64,000 bases of DNA from Solirhodobacter olei (GTDB lineage: Bacteria > Pseudomonadota > Alphaproteobacteria > Rhodobacterales > Rhodobacteraceae). The notes under the pieces are model-generated. The model made no database searches, had not been told where the DNA came from, and was given only the letters and a program-made list of their open reading frames with translations. A program made the translations under genes and the position numbers. Positions 1,949-62,063 of the stretch are shown here, in pieces; the first letter of the stretch is position 1; the number at the start of each line of letters is the position of its first letter. Location: positions 186,001 to 250,000 of the forward strand of contig NZ_RRYH01000002.1 in assembly GCF_004010155.1 (NCBI RefSeq), given 5' to 3'.

Positions 1949-1995
1949 CAAATCGGTGCAAAAGCGGTGTGAAAGCGGTGCTTTTACGGTATTCG
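1949..1995 (-). repeat. 11-bp phased YACCG repeat array, locus A (minus orientation)
   Basis: Read on the minus strand, four YACCG cores sit at exact 11-bp steps. On the plus strand they appear as CGGTG at 1954-1958, 1965-1969 and 1976-1980, then CGGTA at 1987-1991. Units are of the form CACCGCTTTNN. The array lies in the divergent gap between the ASCH gene and typA. Similar arrays lie at 18.0 and 41.7 kb. Confidence 0.75.
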
Positions 1996-2133
1996 CTTTT
2001 CCCAGCCTTCTTCGACGCTTACGGGCGCAAGCTGCGACATTCCCGCCGCAGCGCAGAAAACCGCCTGCCGATCTCCTCTGGCCTTTCCGCCCCACCTCGG
2101 CTATCGCCTCGCCCGAACCATACGAGATGACCC

Positions 2134-3954
<1,821 letters not shown>

Positions 3955-11758: not shown

Positions 11759-14092
11759 TCAGTGAACCTGCCCCTGCACTGTCGCTGTCAACTCGCTGAG
11801 CGAAAACGGTTTTGGCAGGAAGACCGAATTCGGAATCCGGGCCTGGGTGTCGGAGAAGGCATCCTCCGCATAGCCCGAGACGAAGACCACCCGCACCTTG
11901 GGCCGCTTCTTCAGCGCCTCGCGCACCCAGGTTGGCCCATCCATTCCCGGCATGATCACGTCGGAGACGAAGACATCCACCTTCAGCTCCGGATCGGAGA
12001 GCATCTCCAGCGCCTGTTCGCCATTCTCCGCCTCAAGCACCGTGTAGCCCCTGAGCCGCAGCGCGCGCGAGGCGAAGGCGCGCACGGGCGCCTCGTCCTC
12101 CACCAGTAGGATCACGCTGCCGCCGGCGAGGCACTCCTCCAGTTCCGGCAGCGGGGTGCGCGCGGGGTCTTCCTGCCCAGCCCCCGGGTTCGGAGCCGAA
12201 CTGTCGTCATGGGTCGGGAAATAAAGCGAAAAAGTCGTGCCCGTACCGACGATGCTGTCAACGAAGATGAAGCCACCGGTCTGCTTGACGATGCCATAGG
12301 CTGTGGAGAGGCCGAGGCCGGTGCCCTCGCCCGGCCGCTTGGTGGTGTAGAACGGCTCGAAGATCTTCGAAAGGCGGTCGGGCGCGATACCGCTGCCCTC
12401 GTCCCTCACCCGCACCACGGTATAGTCGCCCGCGGGCACCACCGCCCGGTCGCGATGCAGATCCTCCGTCAGCTCCCGGCTTTCCGTCTCGATCCAGATC
12501 CGCCCGCCCGCCGGCATCGCATCGCGCGCGTTCACGATCAGATTCATCAGCGCCTGTTCCAGCTGCCGCTTGTCCGCCCGGATCGGCGCAAGGCTGTCGT
12601 CGTAGGAACGCACGAGGGTTACCTTCTCCCCCACCAGCCGGTTCAGAAGATGTGTCAGATCGCCGAGAACGTCGTGAAGGTCCAGCACCTCCGGCGTCAT
12701 CGTCTGCTTGCGCGAGAAGGCCAGAAGCTGGCGCACCAGGCTGGCCGCGCGATTGGTGTTCTGGCGCACCTGAACAAGGTCGCCATAGTCCGGGTCGTCT
12801 TTCTCGTGCCGCAGCAGGAGCAGGTCGCAATGACCTGAAATTGCGGTAAGAAGATTATTGAAGTCATGTGCCACGCCCCCGGCGAGCTGGCCGATCGCCT
12901 GCATCTTCTGGCTTTGGACGACCTGCGCCTCCAGCGTCTTCAGCTCGGTCGCGTCGCTGAGCACGGCGAGGATACCGGACGTGCCATGATCGATGGTGCG
13001 GCGCAGCGAGATCTGCAGGAAGCGGTTTTCGCCCAACCGGGTCGCGCGGAGCACTTCCGACCGGTTCTGGCCGCGGCCTGCGGCGGTGTCGGTCAGCCAG
13101 TCCGCCACCGGCCGGCCCAGCCCCTCCACCAGGTCGGTAAACATCGGCGCCTCGTCCCGCGCGAGGCCGAGAAGCTCTCGCCCAAGACGGTTTGCGGCCC
13201 GGAGCGCGCCCCCGGCCGAGATCCGTGCGAGGGCAACGGGAAGCTCCTCGAACATCGCCTCTTCCGGGCCGAGCGCGCGTTCGCCGATGGCCGAGGCCGT
13301 CAGCAGGTAGATCTCGCGCCGGTCGCCTGCGCCCTCGACCTCGGCGACCAGTGCGCGCAAGGCACCGCTGGTGGTGGAGACGACCGCCTCCTCGCCGCTG
13401 CGAAGGGGCAGCTGCCGGAAGATCCGGTCCAGCGTTTTCGGGCGCCCGCCCACCAGACGGCGCAGCGCGTCGTTCATGTAAAGGATCTTGCCGGATTTCT
13501 CGGCGATCAGCATCGGCAGGCCGACCGCCTCTGCCCCGCGCACGCCCCCGGACCGGTCCAGCATCTCCTCCAGCCGCCAGAGGAAACTGCCGCGCGCGAT
13601 ACGGTGGACCGAAAGGCGGGCATGGCCGCGGCGGGTCACGACATCCTCGCGTGCGGCACCGACGGCGCCGGCTTTGGATTGAAGGCGAAACATTACCGCC
13701 GACGGGTTGGTGAAGAGGTTACCGGTGGCACGCGTGAAGCTTTGCCCGTCGAAACGGCCGAAGCGCTCCTGCGCGGCGCGGTTCTCGAACAGGACGGCAC
13801 CGTCGGCATCGGTGCCGAACGTGGGTGCGGCGTCATGCTCGACAATGGCCATGACCTGACGTTGCAACTTCAGGCGGCTGTGCCGGCGCAGGATCCCGAG
13901 TCCCGAGGCCAGCAGGGCGATGGCCAAAAAGACCCCGCCGGTGGAGGCGAAGGCCAACCGGCCAATCGGATTTTCGACAAGAACGGCCCCGCCAAGACAG
14001 ACGGCGGCCAGCAGTGCCACCCAGCGCAGCCGGGCCATCATCCCCTCGGTGGGGCCGGCCGGCGACAGCTGAGGAAGCGCCGGGTGCGACAC
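11759..14092 (-). CDS. cckA: Hybrid histidine kinase CckA
   Basis: About 777 residues. Two N-terminal membrane helices are followed by PAS-like sensor regions, a HisKA domain with the phospho-acceptor His in GQLAGGVAHDFNNLL (about H409), an HATPase domain with NLIVNARDAM and GTGLGLSTAYGIV, and a C-terminal receiver with Asp (about D711) in VSDVIMPGMDG. This is the CckA layout; CckA feeds phosphate through ChpT to CtrA, controlling cell cycle, motility or gene transfer depending on species. I take GTG 14092 as start because GGAG lies 8 nt upstream; an ATG at 14128 would leave no room for the promoter. A CtrA box lies 52-66 bp upstream. Confidence 0.93.
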   Translation of the reverse strand: MSHPALPQLSPAGPTEGMMARLRWVALLAAVCLGGAVLVENPIGRLAFASTGGVFLAIALLASGLGILRRHSRLKLQRQVMAIVEHDAAPTFGTDADGAVLFENRAAQERFGRFDGQSFTRATGNLFTNPSAVMFRLQSKAGAVGAAREDVVTRRGHARLSVHRIARGSFLWRLEEMLDRSGGVRGAEAVGLPMLIAEKSGKILYMNDALRRLVGGRPKTLDRIFRQLPLRSGEEAVVSTTSGALRALVAEVEGAGDRREIYLLTASAIGERALGPEEAMFEELPVALARISAGGALRAANRLGRELLGLARDEAPMFTDLVEGLGRPVADWLTDTAAGRGQNRSEVLRATRLGENRFLQISLRRTIDHGTSGILAVLSDATELKTLEAQVVQSQKMQAIGQLAGGVAHDFNNLLTAISGHCDLLLLRHEKDDPDYGDLVQVRQNTNRAASLVRQLLAFSRKQTMTPEVLDLHDVLGDLTHLLNRLVGEKVTLVRSYDDSLAPIRADKRQLEQALMNLIVNARDAMPAGGRIWIETESRELTEDLHRDRAVVPAGDYTVVRVRDEGSGIAPDRLSKIFEPFYTTKRPGEGTGLGLSTAYGIVKQTGGFIFVDSIVGTGTTFSLYFPTHDDSSAPNPGAGQEDPARTPLPELEECLAGGSVILLVEDEAPVRAFASRALRLRGYTVLEAENGEQALEMLSDPELKVDVFVSDVIMPGMDGPTWVREALKKRPKVRVVFVSGYAEDAFSDTQARIPNSVFLPKPFSLSELTATVQGQVH

Positions 14093-14143
14093 GTGCCTTG
14101 CTCCGTTATAAGAATCGAGCCCGCCCATTCGGCGGCAAAAAGC

Positions 14144-14158
14144 TTAAGCCTCAATTAA
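14144..14158. promoter_or_regulatory. CtrA-type box upstream of cckA
   Basis: TTAA (14144-14147), seven bases, TTAA (14155-14158): a perfect TTAA-N7-TTAA, the full CtrA recognition site known from Caulobacter and relatives. It lies 52-66 bp upstream of the GTG start chosen for cckA. In GC-rich DNA such a site is expected well under once per 64 kb. It suggests that CtrA feeds back on the gene for its own kinase. Confidence 0.75.
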
Positions 14159-14188
14159 CGGAAAACTCACACGCAAAGGTTGCACAAA

Positions 14189-15367
14189 TCAAGCGCTATC
14201 GCGTCGCATCAGTGCGCAATAAAAGCCGTCGCCACCGTCCAGCGGGGTCAGGCGACGCTGCCGCTCAAGCCGCCAGCCGGGATGAGCGGAAAGAAACCCC
14301 GTGATCTGGTCGGCATTCTCACTGTCGAGCAGCGAGCAGGTGGCATAGGCCAGCCAGCCACCCGGCGCGACCCACGGCGCGATTTTCACAAGGATTTCGT
14401 ACTGTATGCCCCGAAGCTCATCCAGCCGCCCGGGCGAGAGCCGCCATTTCGCCTCCGGCGCGCGGCGCCAGCTGCCGCTTCCGGAACAGGGGACGTCGGC
14501 CAGGATAAGATCGAAGGGCGCGCGTTCCGCGATACCTGCCGTCCCGACGGTCTCGATCTCCGCCCCGGCCCGTGCGGCACGGGCGGGAAGGTCGCGCATG
14601 CGGGCCGCGTCGGCATCATGGGCGAAGATCCGGACGGGCGCCCGGGCGGCGAGCGCGAGGCTCTTGCCGCCGCCGCCGGCGCAATAGTCAAGAACACGGT
14701 TGCCCGGCGCGAGTGGCAACATCTCTACCACAGCCTGCGAGGCCGCGTCCTGCAACTCCACAACCCCGTTGCGATAGGCCTCCGAGTTCTGGATTTTCCG
14801 CGCCCCTGCAGTCACTTCCAGCGCGCTCTTCGCAAGCGGATGGGGCATCGTCTCGATCCCCTCGCGGGCCAGCGCGGCCTGTGCCGCGTCGCGGCTCGTG
14901 CGGGCGAGATTGACCCGCAGGAAGACCGGCGCACGGTGGCGCAGGGTCTCCATCACCGCCTGGTAATCCGGGCCCAGGCTCTGCTTCAGCTCGGGCGCGA
15001 GCCACGCGGGAACATCCAGCGCCACCTCGGGATCAAGCGACAGAGTGCTGGCAAGATGCGCCTTTTCCGGCCCGGTCAGCGGTGCGGGTGCATGCGGCGC
15101 GCCGGTGAAGAGCGCCTCCGGCCCCTCACCATGGCCGCGGAGCGCGCCCAGCATCAGGCCCCGGCCCGTTTCCGCCCCGCCGAGCGCGGCGAAGGAGCGG
15201 CGGCAGCGCAGCGCGTCGAACACATGATCGCGCACCGCCGCCCGGTCGGAGGATCCGGCGAAGCGGCTCGCCCGGGCCCAGCGGGTCAGCGCCTGCTCGG
15301 CTGGCGCACCGGCGAGCATCGTGTCGAGGATCTCGACGGCGGCCTGGACGCGGGCGGCCGGCGTCAT
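14189..15367 (-). CDS. RsmB/NOP family 16S rRNA cytosine-C5 methyltransferase
   Basis: A 392-residue SAM-dependent RNA methyltransferase. An N-terminal helical RNA-binding region (about 1-130) is followed by a Rossmann MTase core: SAM motif I VLDYCAGGGGKSLALAA, motif IV DVPCSGSGSWRR with the conserved Cys, and motif VI YATCSLLDSEN with the catalytic Cys. These two cysteines identify the m5C RsmB/RsmF class. It probably modifies 16S rRNA; the exact site cannot be told. It lies between cckA and guaB, all on the minus strand. Confidence 0.9.
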   Translation of the reverse strand: MTPAARVQAAVEILDTMLAGAPAEQALTRWARASRFAGSSDRAAVRDHVFDALRCRRSFAALGGAETGRGLMLGALRGHGEGPEALFTGAPHAPAPLTGPEKAHLASTLSLDPEVALDVPAWLAPELKQSLGPDYQAVMETLRHRAPVFLRVNLARTSRDAAQAALAREGIETMPHPLAKSALEVTAGARKIQNSEAYRNGVVELQDAASQAVVEMLPLAPGNRVLDYCAGGGGKSLALAARAPVRIFAHDADAARMRDLPARAARAGAEIETVGTAGIAERAPFDLILADVPCSGSGSWRRAPEAKWRLSPGRLDELRGIQYEILVKIAPWVAPGGWLAYATCSLLDSENADQITGFLSAHPGWRLERQRRLTPLDGGDGFYCALMRRDSA

Positions 15368-15422
15368 GGGCCCGACCCGAAGATCGCCGGGCAGGCCGTT
15401 GACACCGAAGACTTATACACCC

Positions 15423-17972
<2,550 letters not shown>

Positions 17973-18024
17973 AGATCGGCCGGTAATGGCCTAGCATTGC
18001 AGAAAAAACGCCCTGCCGTTTCAG

Positions 18025-18074
18025 CACCGATTTGACACCGCTTTCGCACCGTAAGTGTACCGTATTTCGGGATG
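18025..18074 (+). repeat. 11-bp phased YACCG repeat array, locus B
   Basis: Four cores at exact 11-bp steps: CACCG at 18025, 18036 and 18047, then TACCG at 18058. The array continues into GTATTTCGGGATGGTG, closely matching the end of locus C. It lies in the convergent gap between the agmatinase gene and the small basic protein gene, just before a CtrA box. Confidence 0.8.
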
Positions 18075-18079
18075 GTGCA

Positions 18080-18096: not shown

Positions 18097-18158
18097 CCGT
18101 CCGCCCCTGGGGGGCGGACGGGCGCTGGCCCGGCGGGCTTCGCCCGATCTGTCGGGCC
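18097..18158 (+). repeat. GC-rich palindromic repeat, copy 1
   Basis: A hairpin CCGTCCGCCCC/GGGGCGGACGG (18097-18121) runs into GGCGCTGGCCCGGCGGGC and ends CGGGCC (18158). The core from GGGGCGGACGGGCG to TCGGGCC recurs near 49.6 kb (minus orientation) and 62.2 kb. This is a REP-like intergenic family. Confidence 0.75.
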
Positions 18159-41678: not shown

Positions 41679-41719
41679 GGGTGCGGGCGCAGGGGGTTGG
41701 AATGGCTGGGAAATCGGGG

Positions 41720-41779
41720 AACCGATTTGACACAGCTTTCGCACCGCTTTGACACCGTAATGTACCGTATTTCGGGACG
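41720..41779 (+). repeat. 11-bp phased YACCG repeat array, locus C
   Basis: Five units: AACCG (41720), CACAG (41731), CACCG (41742), CACCG (41753) at exact 11-bp steps, then TACCG (41763) after 10 bp. The end GTACCGTATTTCGGGACGGTG (41762-41782) matches locus B closely and forms an ACCGT/ACGGT inverted repeat. It lies between the tusA-like gene and the 3' end of rne. Confidence 0.8.
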
Positions 41780-41823
41780 GTGGTAGGCCGGCTTGCGCAA
41801 CGGGGGTGAGACGCCGGGGCGAC

Positions 41824-41844
41824 GGTGCGCGATGAATGCGCACC
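41824..41844. repeat. Short perfect hairpin in the tusA-rne gap
   Basis: GGTGCGC (41824-41830) and GCGCACC (41838-41844) form a 7-bp perfect stem around GATGAAT, followed by CTACAGG. Sequences of the form GTAGGGTGCGCnnnnnGCGCACC recur widely between bacterial genes. Only this copy is obvious in the window. Confidence 0.5.
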
Positions 41845-41903
41845 CTACAGGCCGAAGCCGCGTCGCGCGGCCGCCAGTTTACGAGGATCCGGTCATGGAA
41901 ACG

Positions 41904-61986: not shown

Positions 61987-62063
61987 GGGCCTGTAGCTCA
62001 ATTGGTCAGAGCAGGGCGCTCATAACGCCTTGGTTGGGGGTTCAAGTCCCTCCGGGCCTACCA
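61987..62063 (+). tRNA. tRNA with CAT anticodon (probably tRNA-Ile2, lysidine type)
   Basis: A 77-nt cloverleaf including encoded CCA: acceptor GGGCCTG/CGGGCCT, D-arm GCTC/GAGC, anticodon arm GGGCG-CTCATAA-CGCCT and T-arm with TTCAAGT. The first acceptor pair is G-T. The anticodon CAT could be elongator Met or Ile2 whose C34 is modified to lysidine. The acceptor stem resembles tRNA-Ile, so I favour Ile2. It lacks the features of initiator tRNA. Confidence 0.93.

Follow-up and report, generated by a model that had tools for sequence, protein, structure and literature searches.

Polar intergenic arrays of an 11-bp repeat in Solirhodobacter olei and their dialects in relatives suggest an undescribed chromosome-marking system

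What a short row of direct repeats may be doing between two divergent genes is the question raised by a locus near the start of the 64-kb stretch of DNA analysed here, called the window in what follows. An earlier note had described there four YACCG cores at exact 11-bp steps on the minus strand, which read CGGTG or CGGTA on the plus strand at 1954, 1965, 1976 and 1987. We recovered the cores and the step as described, and the divergent setting agrees as well: the array (locus A) lies between a gene at 1562-1891 on the minus strand, called ASCH in the note, and typA at 2134-3954 on the plus strand, in a divergent gap. The name TypA matches the annotation on one plasmid match. Two further arrays that had been said to share the unit, B and C, are also present, and the elements of the three loci are the following:

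1991 down to 1948, minus strand: locus A, four 11-bp units TACCGTAAAAG CACCGCTTTCA CACCGCTTTTG CACCGATTTGG
1992..2023, minus strand: leader of locus A, CGTAAGCGTCGAAGAAGGCTGGGAAAAGCGAA, of the type preceding the first unit in most S. olei arrays
18014..18077, plus strand: locus B, units TGCCGTTTCAG CACCGATTTGA CACCGCTTTCG CACCGTAAGTG TACCGTATTTC and inverted cap GGGATGGTG, in a convergent gap
17982..18013, plus strand: leader of locus B, degenerate
41720..41783, plus strand: locus C, units AACCGATTTGA CACAGCTTTCG CACCGCTTTGA CACCGTAATG (10 bp) TACCGTATTTC and inverted cap GGGACGGTGG, in a convergent gap
41690..41719, plus strand: leader of locus C, CAGGGGGTTGGAATGGCTGGGAAATCGGGG
41795..41801, plus strand: trailer word GCGCAAC, at a near-fixed distance 3' of many arrays of the locus C class

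Triple runs of YACCG occur four times in the window at the 11-bp step and never at steps of 8-10 or 12-15 bp, and none at step 11 appeared in 100 dinucleotide shuffles of the window; CACCGCTTT was counted four times against 0.30 expected. The comparison with chance, which the earlier note had named as a refuting test, came out in its favour over the whole genome of S. olei (G000; 4.78 Mb in 122 contigs), where YACCG-N6-YACCG-N6-YACCG gave 108 matches and CACCGNTTTNNYACCG 98, against 0 for either reversed pattern. From the 108 matches, of which 100 were listed, we drew a working set of 69 separate arrays: the three of the window and 66 others, each retrieved with as much as 4 kb of flank on either side. 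The genome thus holds at least 69, or roughly 15 per Mb. Within the genus, the pattern matched 103 times in G394 and 152 times in G396 and, among the matches listed, the same arrays were found in the MAGs RI_331 and WY4.bin28, which are G394 and G396. The tight CACCG pattern gave no match in 393 further genomes from the family, almost all of them a single representative of their genus.

The unit consensus is YACCG-N-TTT-N-R. ACCG is invariant in all 177 units examined from S. olei, 89 from G394 and 143 from G396, as required by the fetching patterns, which also favour TTT. In S. olei, the unit opens with C or T and closes with G or A (position 11), TTT predominates at positions 7-9 and position 10 is unconstrained, while position 6 is C in 55%, T in 31% and A in 14% of units; in G394 and G396 this position is A in 72% and 100% of units, respectively. 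Copy number is narrow, with four or five units in 46 of the 69 S. olei arrays (a lower share due in part to the 10-bp step), 28 of 29 in G394 and 37 of 39 in G396. Most S. olei arrays have a leader of approximately the form CAAG-N3-TTGG-N3/4-GGCTGGAAAA at a near-fixed distance 5' of the first unit (51/69 passed the leader score). In many of them an inverted half-site and a trailer close the array (TACCGTATTTCGGGACGGTG, then GCGCAAC), and the conserved words are interspersed with random bases.

Folding signal was absent by RNA parameters: the mean z (n=69) was -0.29 for one strand and -0.57 for the other, with values below -2 in 7% and 12% of arrays. At the gathering threshold Rfam matched only a tRNA over the whole window, in which a tRNA gene lies at 61987-62060, and element C had no Rfam match at E up to 5. 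We rejected an RNA element or Rfam family because the folding signal was lacking, as were Rfam matches to the arrays of the window and to element C. The fixed period, the three to five units, the strict 5-bp core with the T-rich triplet after it, the inverted caps and the free positions suggest a small number of protein protomers bound to the same face of the helix. The putative helically phased site for cooperative binding of the earlier note is partly supported: it agrees with the fixed ACCG core and its free positions, the narrow copy number, the lack of folding and the conservation of arrays at some orthologous sites.

Other repeats adjoin some of the arrays. A palindromic intergenic repeat, GGTGCGCGATGAATGCGCACCCTAC, lies at 41824-41848 just 3' of array C, and similar palindromes are found 3' of about eight other S. 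olei arrays, so that the two repeat families often occur together. The GC-rich intergenic repeat GGGGGGCGGACGGGCGCTGGCCCGGCGG at 18109-18136 adjoins array B, similar stretches following a few other arrays. An extra tail of about CACCGATTT(N)GGTTTTT(N)GAATGTGT is common to three arrays (at 1933-1958 in the window, and at two further loci) and may mark a sub-family.

The placement of the arrays relative to genes was studied with a gene caller seeded with four recognised genes, trained on S. olei (coding density 0.90) and applied also to G394 and G396. An intergenic bias, which the earlier note had proposed to test for, is seen in this set: only six of the 69 arrays fall within called genes; 25 lie in convergent, 34 in codirectional and 4 in divergent gaps, and those in codirectional gaps run along the genes in 19 cases and against them in 15. 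Array-free gaps of at least 60 bp at the same loci were convergent in 32 cases and divergent in 57 (Fisher 3e-6). The preference was repeated in G394 (28 loci), with 10 convergent and 2 divergent gaps holding arrays against 9 and 26 free of them (p=0.0013), and in G396 (35 loci), with 16 and 2 against 4 and 20 (5e-6). Locus A is therefore one of four divergent exceptions among 69 arrays. A Pfam scan of 130 neighbour proteins (at most 420 bp away) brought out no theme, the 199 families having no more than three members each. Together with the preference for convergent gaps, this argues against a regulon of the usual sort.

The orientation of the arrays follows another rule. Of the 69 S. olei arrays, 66 have an orientation equal to the sign of the GC skew measured within 4 kb; such polarity counts are not independent, since neighbouring arrays share skew domains. 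The same 66/69 was obtained from each flank alone when the central 600 bp were excluded (r 0.87 and 0.86; r 0.90 with the centre), and the correlation of array orientation with gene strand was r -0.02. Skew at third codon positions showed the same strand effect in genes of both orientations. Agreement was found as well in 27 of 29 G394 arrays and 35 of 39 G396 arrays, one of the G396 misses having a skew of exactly zero. Since orientation follows skew and not gene strand, the arrays look polar relative to the replicated strand. On the G-rich strand the S. olei unit is rich in C, so its composition is not the source of its polarity. The G-rich strand is generally the leading strand, and it is on this basis that we would assign the arrays to it.

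On contig C36, the skew that is left once gene strand has been corrected for belongs to whole domains. Between 117 and 200 kb it is negative, apart from some 15 kb close to zero, and between 202 and 270 kb it is positive; the five arrays in this interval follow the local gene-corrected skew. The skew flips several times along this contig. Paired matches to the parS consensus were located at 193-195 kb on contig C91 of S. olei and at 120-122 kb on contig C17 of G394, in both cases with no switch of skew or of array orientation nearby; the S. olei arrays flanking parS, at 182 and 253 kb, share one orientation. These parS positions away from a skew switch and the multiple flips on C36 imply either that inversions have shuffled the chromosome arms or that skew does not equal the present direction of replication. 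A search for a dif site by its consensus found none. In the window, skew turns from negative to positive at about 14000-17000, between arrays A and B and also when corrected for gene strand, at what may be an origin-like point or an inversion boundary.

A terminus-like switch is seen on contig C23, the longest of G394 (912,861 bp): skew is positive in the nine stretches sampled as far as 585 kb and negative in four of the five sampled past 635 kb, which puts a presumed terminus at about 600 kb. Only 3 of 53 arrays lie on this contig (binomial P=0.0018, for one contig picked post hoc), plus-oriented at 279 kb and minus-oriented at 760 and 876 kb, with about 480 kb empty. Their orientations fit the broad skew pattern, the skew near 775 kb being slightly positive.

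Within the genus, CACCG arrays are present in some species and absent from others. In a typA tree, S. olei groups with G396 and G394 with G395, so that the species bearing CACCG arrays are not one clade. G395, G182 and G397 have no CACCG match (one control match in G395), and G398 has a single one, apparently by chance. Of these four of the seven genus members, G395 has another dialect, G182 and G397 retain a decayed array at gltD and G398 yielded none, so the system is dispensable. On conservation in close relatives, the other refuting test of the earlier note, the outcome is mixed: G396 also carries an array at typA, and G394, G395, G398, G182 and G397 have none there. Leaving typA apart, the arrays that share a gap with an orthologous S. 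olei array number at least 6 in G394 (29 loci) and at least 10 in G396 (38 loci), as judged from pairs and with queries from a gene caller that confuses antisense ORFs with genes.

At kept positions, some relatives carry tandem arrays of other 11-bp units. Units that represent several of the dialects, in S. olei and in relatives, are the following:

CACCGCTTTNN
CRTATGTNWWT
TGTCGGGCAN

The CRTATGT dialect was brought to light by inspecting in the relatives the 3' ends of eight genes that have arrays in S. olei, at loci chosen for a known orthologous array. The names of the flanking genes (gltD, aroB, Lrp, LivF and others) come from our reading of the proteins; the AroB 3' end could not be placed in G394, and the HI0933 3' ends are doubtful in G182 and G397. 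CACCG arrays were present at 5/6 of these ends in G396 and 5/7 in G394, rates inflated by the selection. G395, for which the rate was not selected, has arrays of CRTATGT-NWWT at 3/7 (gltD, aroB and Lrp), and they keep the orientation relative to the gene seen at the CACCG arrays. Since our array flag recognises no unit but CACCG, those of G395 were spotted by eye and then matched by pattern: two units of CRTATGT-NWWT gave 29 matches in G395 (about 21 places), the gltD, aroB and Lrp sites all among them, with 0 for the control and 0 in the other six genomes of the genus. Three arrays lie on contig C45 of G395 and none on its contig C66 (180 kb). The gltD 3' end bears a decayed array in G182 and G397, and G398 has arrays at 0 of the 8 inspected ends; a 400-kb portion of G398 showed no surplus of 11-bp tandems, by a weak test that hardly detects the known arrays of G395. 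Pairs of palindromes resembling TGTATACAT are found 3' of a LivF-like gene in G182 and G394 and are perhaps the operator of another regulator.

The gltD 3' end was followed across genera in the best 30 of 111 genomes with a match, one per genus. A self-match of at least 15/22 at period 11 was found in 6/30 genomes (5/29 without S. olei), against a mean of 0.10 and a maximum of 2 in shuffles and at most two genomes at any other period from 7 to 20; at 14/22 or more, it was found in 8/30 against at most 4 elsewhere (period 12). The cores of the five arrays from other genera are GCGTATGGCAN (in two genera), TGTCGGGCAN, GTCGGACTTTG and CGTGCTTTNTN, and G077 has at gltD an array of the unit GTCTTCYTTCC, with a self-match of 14. 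In unbiased scans, stretches of period 11 at 16/22 number four in 200 kb of G035 and three in 176 kb of G077, and 0-3 at seven other periods. Since the raw excess in G035 is slight (4 against 3 at period 13), the case rests on the shared core: that of the local gltD array recurs in 3/4 of the G035 and 2/3 of the G077 stretches. Dialect patterns, written after seeing the arrays, matched three arrays in each of the two genomes' stretches (the gltD array included) and none with the reversed control.

The dialect arrays obey the same polarity. Orientation agrees with skew sign in 3/3 arrays in G035, in G077 and on contig C45 of G395, and the gltD and aroB arrays of G395 also follow it, which brings to five the genomes other than S. 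olei in which agreement was observed. In G035 the unit is itself rich in G on the G-rich strand, and composition could therefore contribute to its agreement.

Several explanations were weighed against these data. Ordinary operators, through which a tandem-binding regulator of OmpR-family type would control the genes adjoining the arrays, have in their favour that 11-bp direct repeats suit binding by this family and that locus A lies upstream of typA, with an array there in G396 as well. But convergent gaps are preferred over divergent ones (25 against 4), codirectional gaps hold both orientations, the neighbours have no theme and orientation tracks GC skew rather than genes; such control is in our judgement unlikely, and simple promoter operators were rejected on the gap preference and the absence of a theme. 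Sites for fork arrest or transcription termination, where bound arrays would block polymerases in the 3' regions of genes, would fit the placement in 3' gaps and the polarity. Orientation independent of gene strand speaks against an oriented transcription terminator, however, and the rarity of arrays on the one G394 contig with a terminus-like switch is the opposite of what Ter sites show, which leaves this reading improbable. In PMC9275681, the motif of CenR of Rhodobacter sphaeroides is TGA-N8-TGA and a 10-bp step is discussed as OmpR-family binding; the YACCG-N-TTT-N-R unit differs from this motif, and CenR operators were rejected.

Polarity would also be expected of Chi-like sites controlling recombination or nucleases, as repair enzymes run back from broken forks, and lineage-specific Chi words do exist. 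Chi, however, consists of one short word rather than a tandem array, and 69 arrays in 4.78 Mb are far sparser than Chi, so that we consider this highly improbable. A small mobile element of IS200/IS605 or REP/RAYT type, inserting into the single-stranded lagging-strand template and having no cellular function, would be expected to be polar and to avoid promoters, and the leader, array and trailer are common to many S. olei copies; targeting of the lagging strand is documented for IS608 and ISDra2 (PMC6006769). Against it are the conserved words at near-fixed spacing with random bases between them, the lack of a folding signal (RNA parameters) and of the hairpin by which REP- and IS200-type repeats are recognised, and orthologous positions retained between species whose units have changed and, at gltD, between genera. 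We give this explanation only a small chance, and recent transposition as the sole cause was rejected since positions are kept across species and genera.

We favour, tentatively and at somewhat less than an even chance, the reading of the arrays as chromosome-wide directional signposts for a translocase, an SMC complex or a comparable machine. A polarity that does not depend on genes suggests a process running along the chromosome, and the switching of dialects at kept positions to one protein of changing specificity whose sites follow. One putative DNA-binding protein would bind head-to-tail on three to five units of 11 bp, each about one helical turn, reading the 5-bp core and the T-rich triplet after it, with an inverted half-site often capping the array; it would most likely be a winged-helix protein, as in OmpR/PhoB or the gamma domain of FtsK. 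Because copies share their direction relative to strand asymmetry, presumably from origin to terminus on the leading strand, the bound filament would be directional and might load, pause or orient a translocase or SMC complex moving along the chromosome, the arrays being kept out of coding and promoter regions so as not to disturb genes. The specificity of the protein would shift between lineages, and the sites with it, producing the dialects, while the period, the orientation and some positions would persist. The data themselves show the arrays, their period and gene context, the agreement with skew sign in S. olei and five other genomes, and the dialects; the protein with its fold, the assignment to the leading strand and the function are inferred from them. 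The reading is weakest at the putative protein, the presumed direction of replication and the absence of the system from G398. We are more doubtful of a wider claim, namely that such a system, with polar arrays and one fast-evolving protein, is widespread in Rhodobacteraceae and may provide oriented boundaries like those of CTCF and cohesin or a new class of translocase-orienting sites.

Several known systems resemble the arrays in part. The Pho box and other OmpR-family operators are made of 11-bp direct repeats with a core and an A/T-rich spacer; they lie upstream of the regulated genes, whereas the arrays prefer convergent gaps. REPs are palindromic, while the arrays are head-to-tail and keep some sites across species, and DNA uptake sequences are numerous single words, unlike tandem and polar arrays at about 15 per Mb. 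The likeness lies, for REP/REPIN, in being dispersed short extragenic repeats (PMC3116915) and, for the DNA uptake sequences of Neisseriaceae, in having lineage-specific dialects of one genomic mark (PMC3630211). Direct repeats of TAACTGA in Beggiatoaceae (169 sets in one genome; PMC4679880) share with the arrays the many short sets and the lack of a functional pattern in downstream genes. Their unit has 7 bp, they lie mostly just 5' of start codons and one heptamer serves distant taxa; the abstract of that paper mentions neither dialects nor strand polarity. AIMS and KOPS, the latter being the orienting sequences of FtsK, are likewise strand-polar and clade-specific and are proposed to guide moving machines (PMC5993296). 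AIMS are octamers that become more abundant towards the terminus, whereas the arrays are sparse intergenic tandems with leader and cap, and few of them lie near the terminus-like switch of G394, the only genome in which this was examined. For AIMS in E. coli the criterion is at least 96 copies (PMC5993296); the arrays number about 69, and more than 177 copies when counted by unit.

The earlier note had not gone as far as the atypical setting of locus A, the preference for convergent gaps, the orientation that follows skew or the dialects in some relatives. Searches of the literature found no paper containing any of six array strings, and among the titles and abstract starts listed none describes such arrays; on those searches they are apparently absent from print. 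Together, the arrays and their dialects suggest an undescribed chromosome-marking system with a fast-evolving DNA-binding protein. If so, it would form an unrecognised layer of chromosome organisation, which searches for any single motif would miss, since the geometry is conserved and the motif is not. It would also offer a natural experiment on how the specificity of a DNA-binding protein changes in step with dozens of its sites, and would make the directional reading of bacterial chromosomes testable beyond FtsK/KOPS; a KOPS-like function, if proven, would make the arrays a variant of the KOPS kind. Among the matches listed there are also scattered single ones in unrelated bacteria, and tandem 11-bp CACCG-like units were observed at five loci from Alcaligenaceae, Comamonas, gammaproteobacteria and Vallitaleaceae; their number may be near chance, and several are near-perfect repeats.
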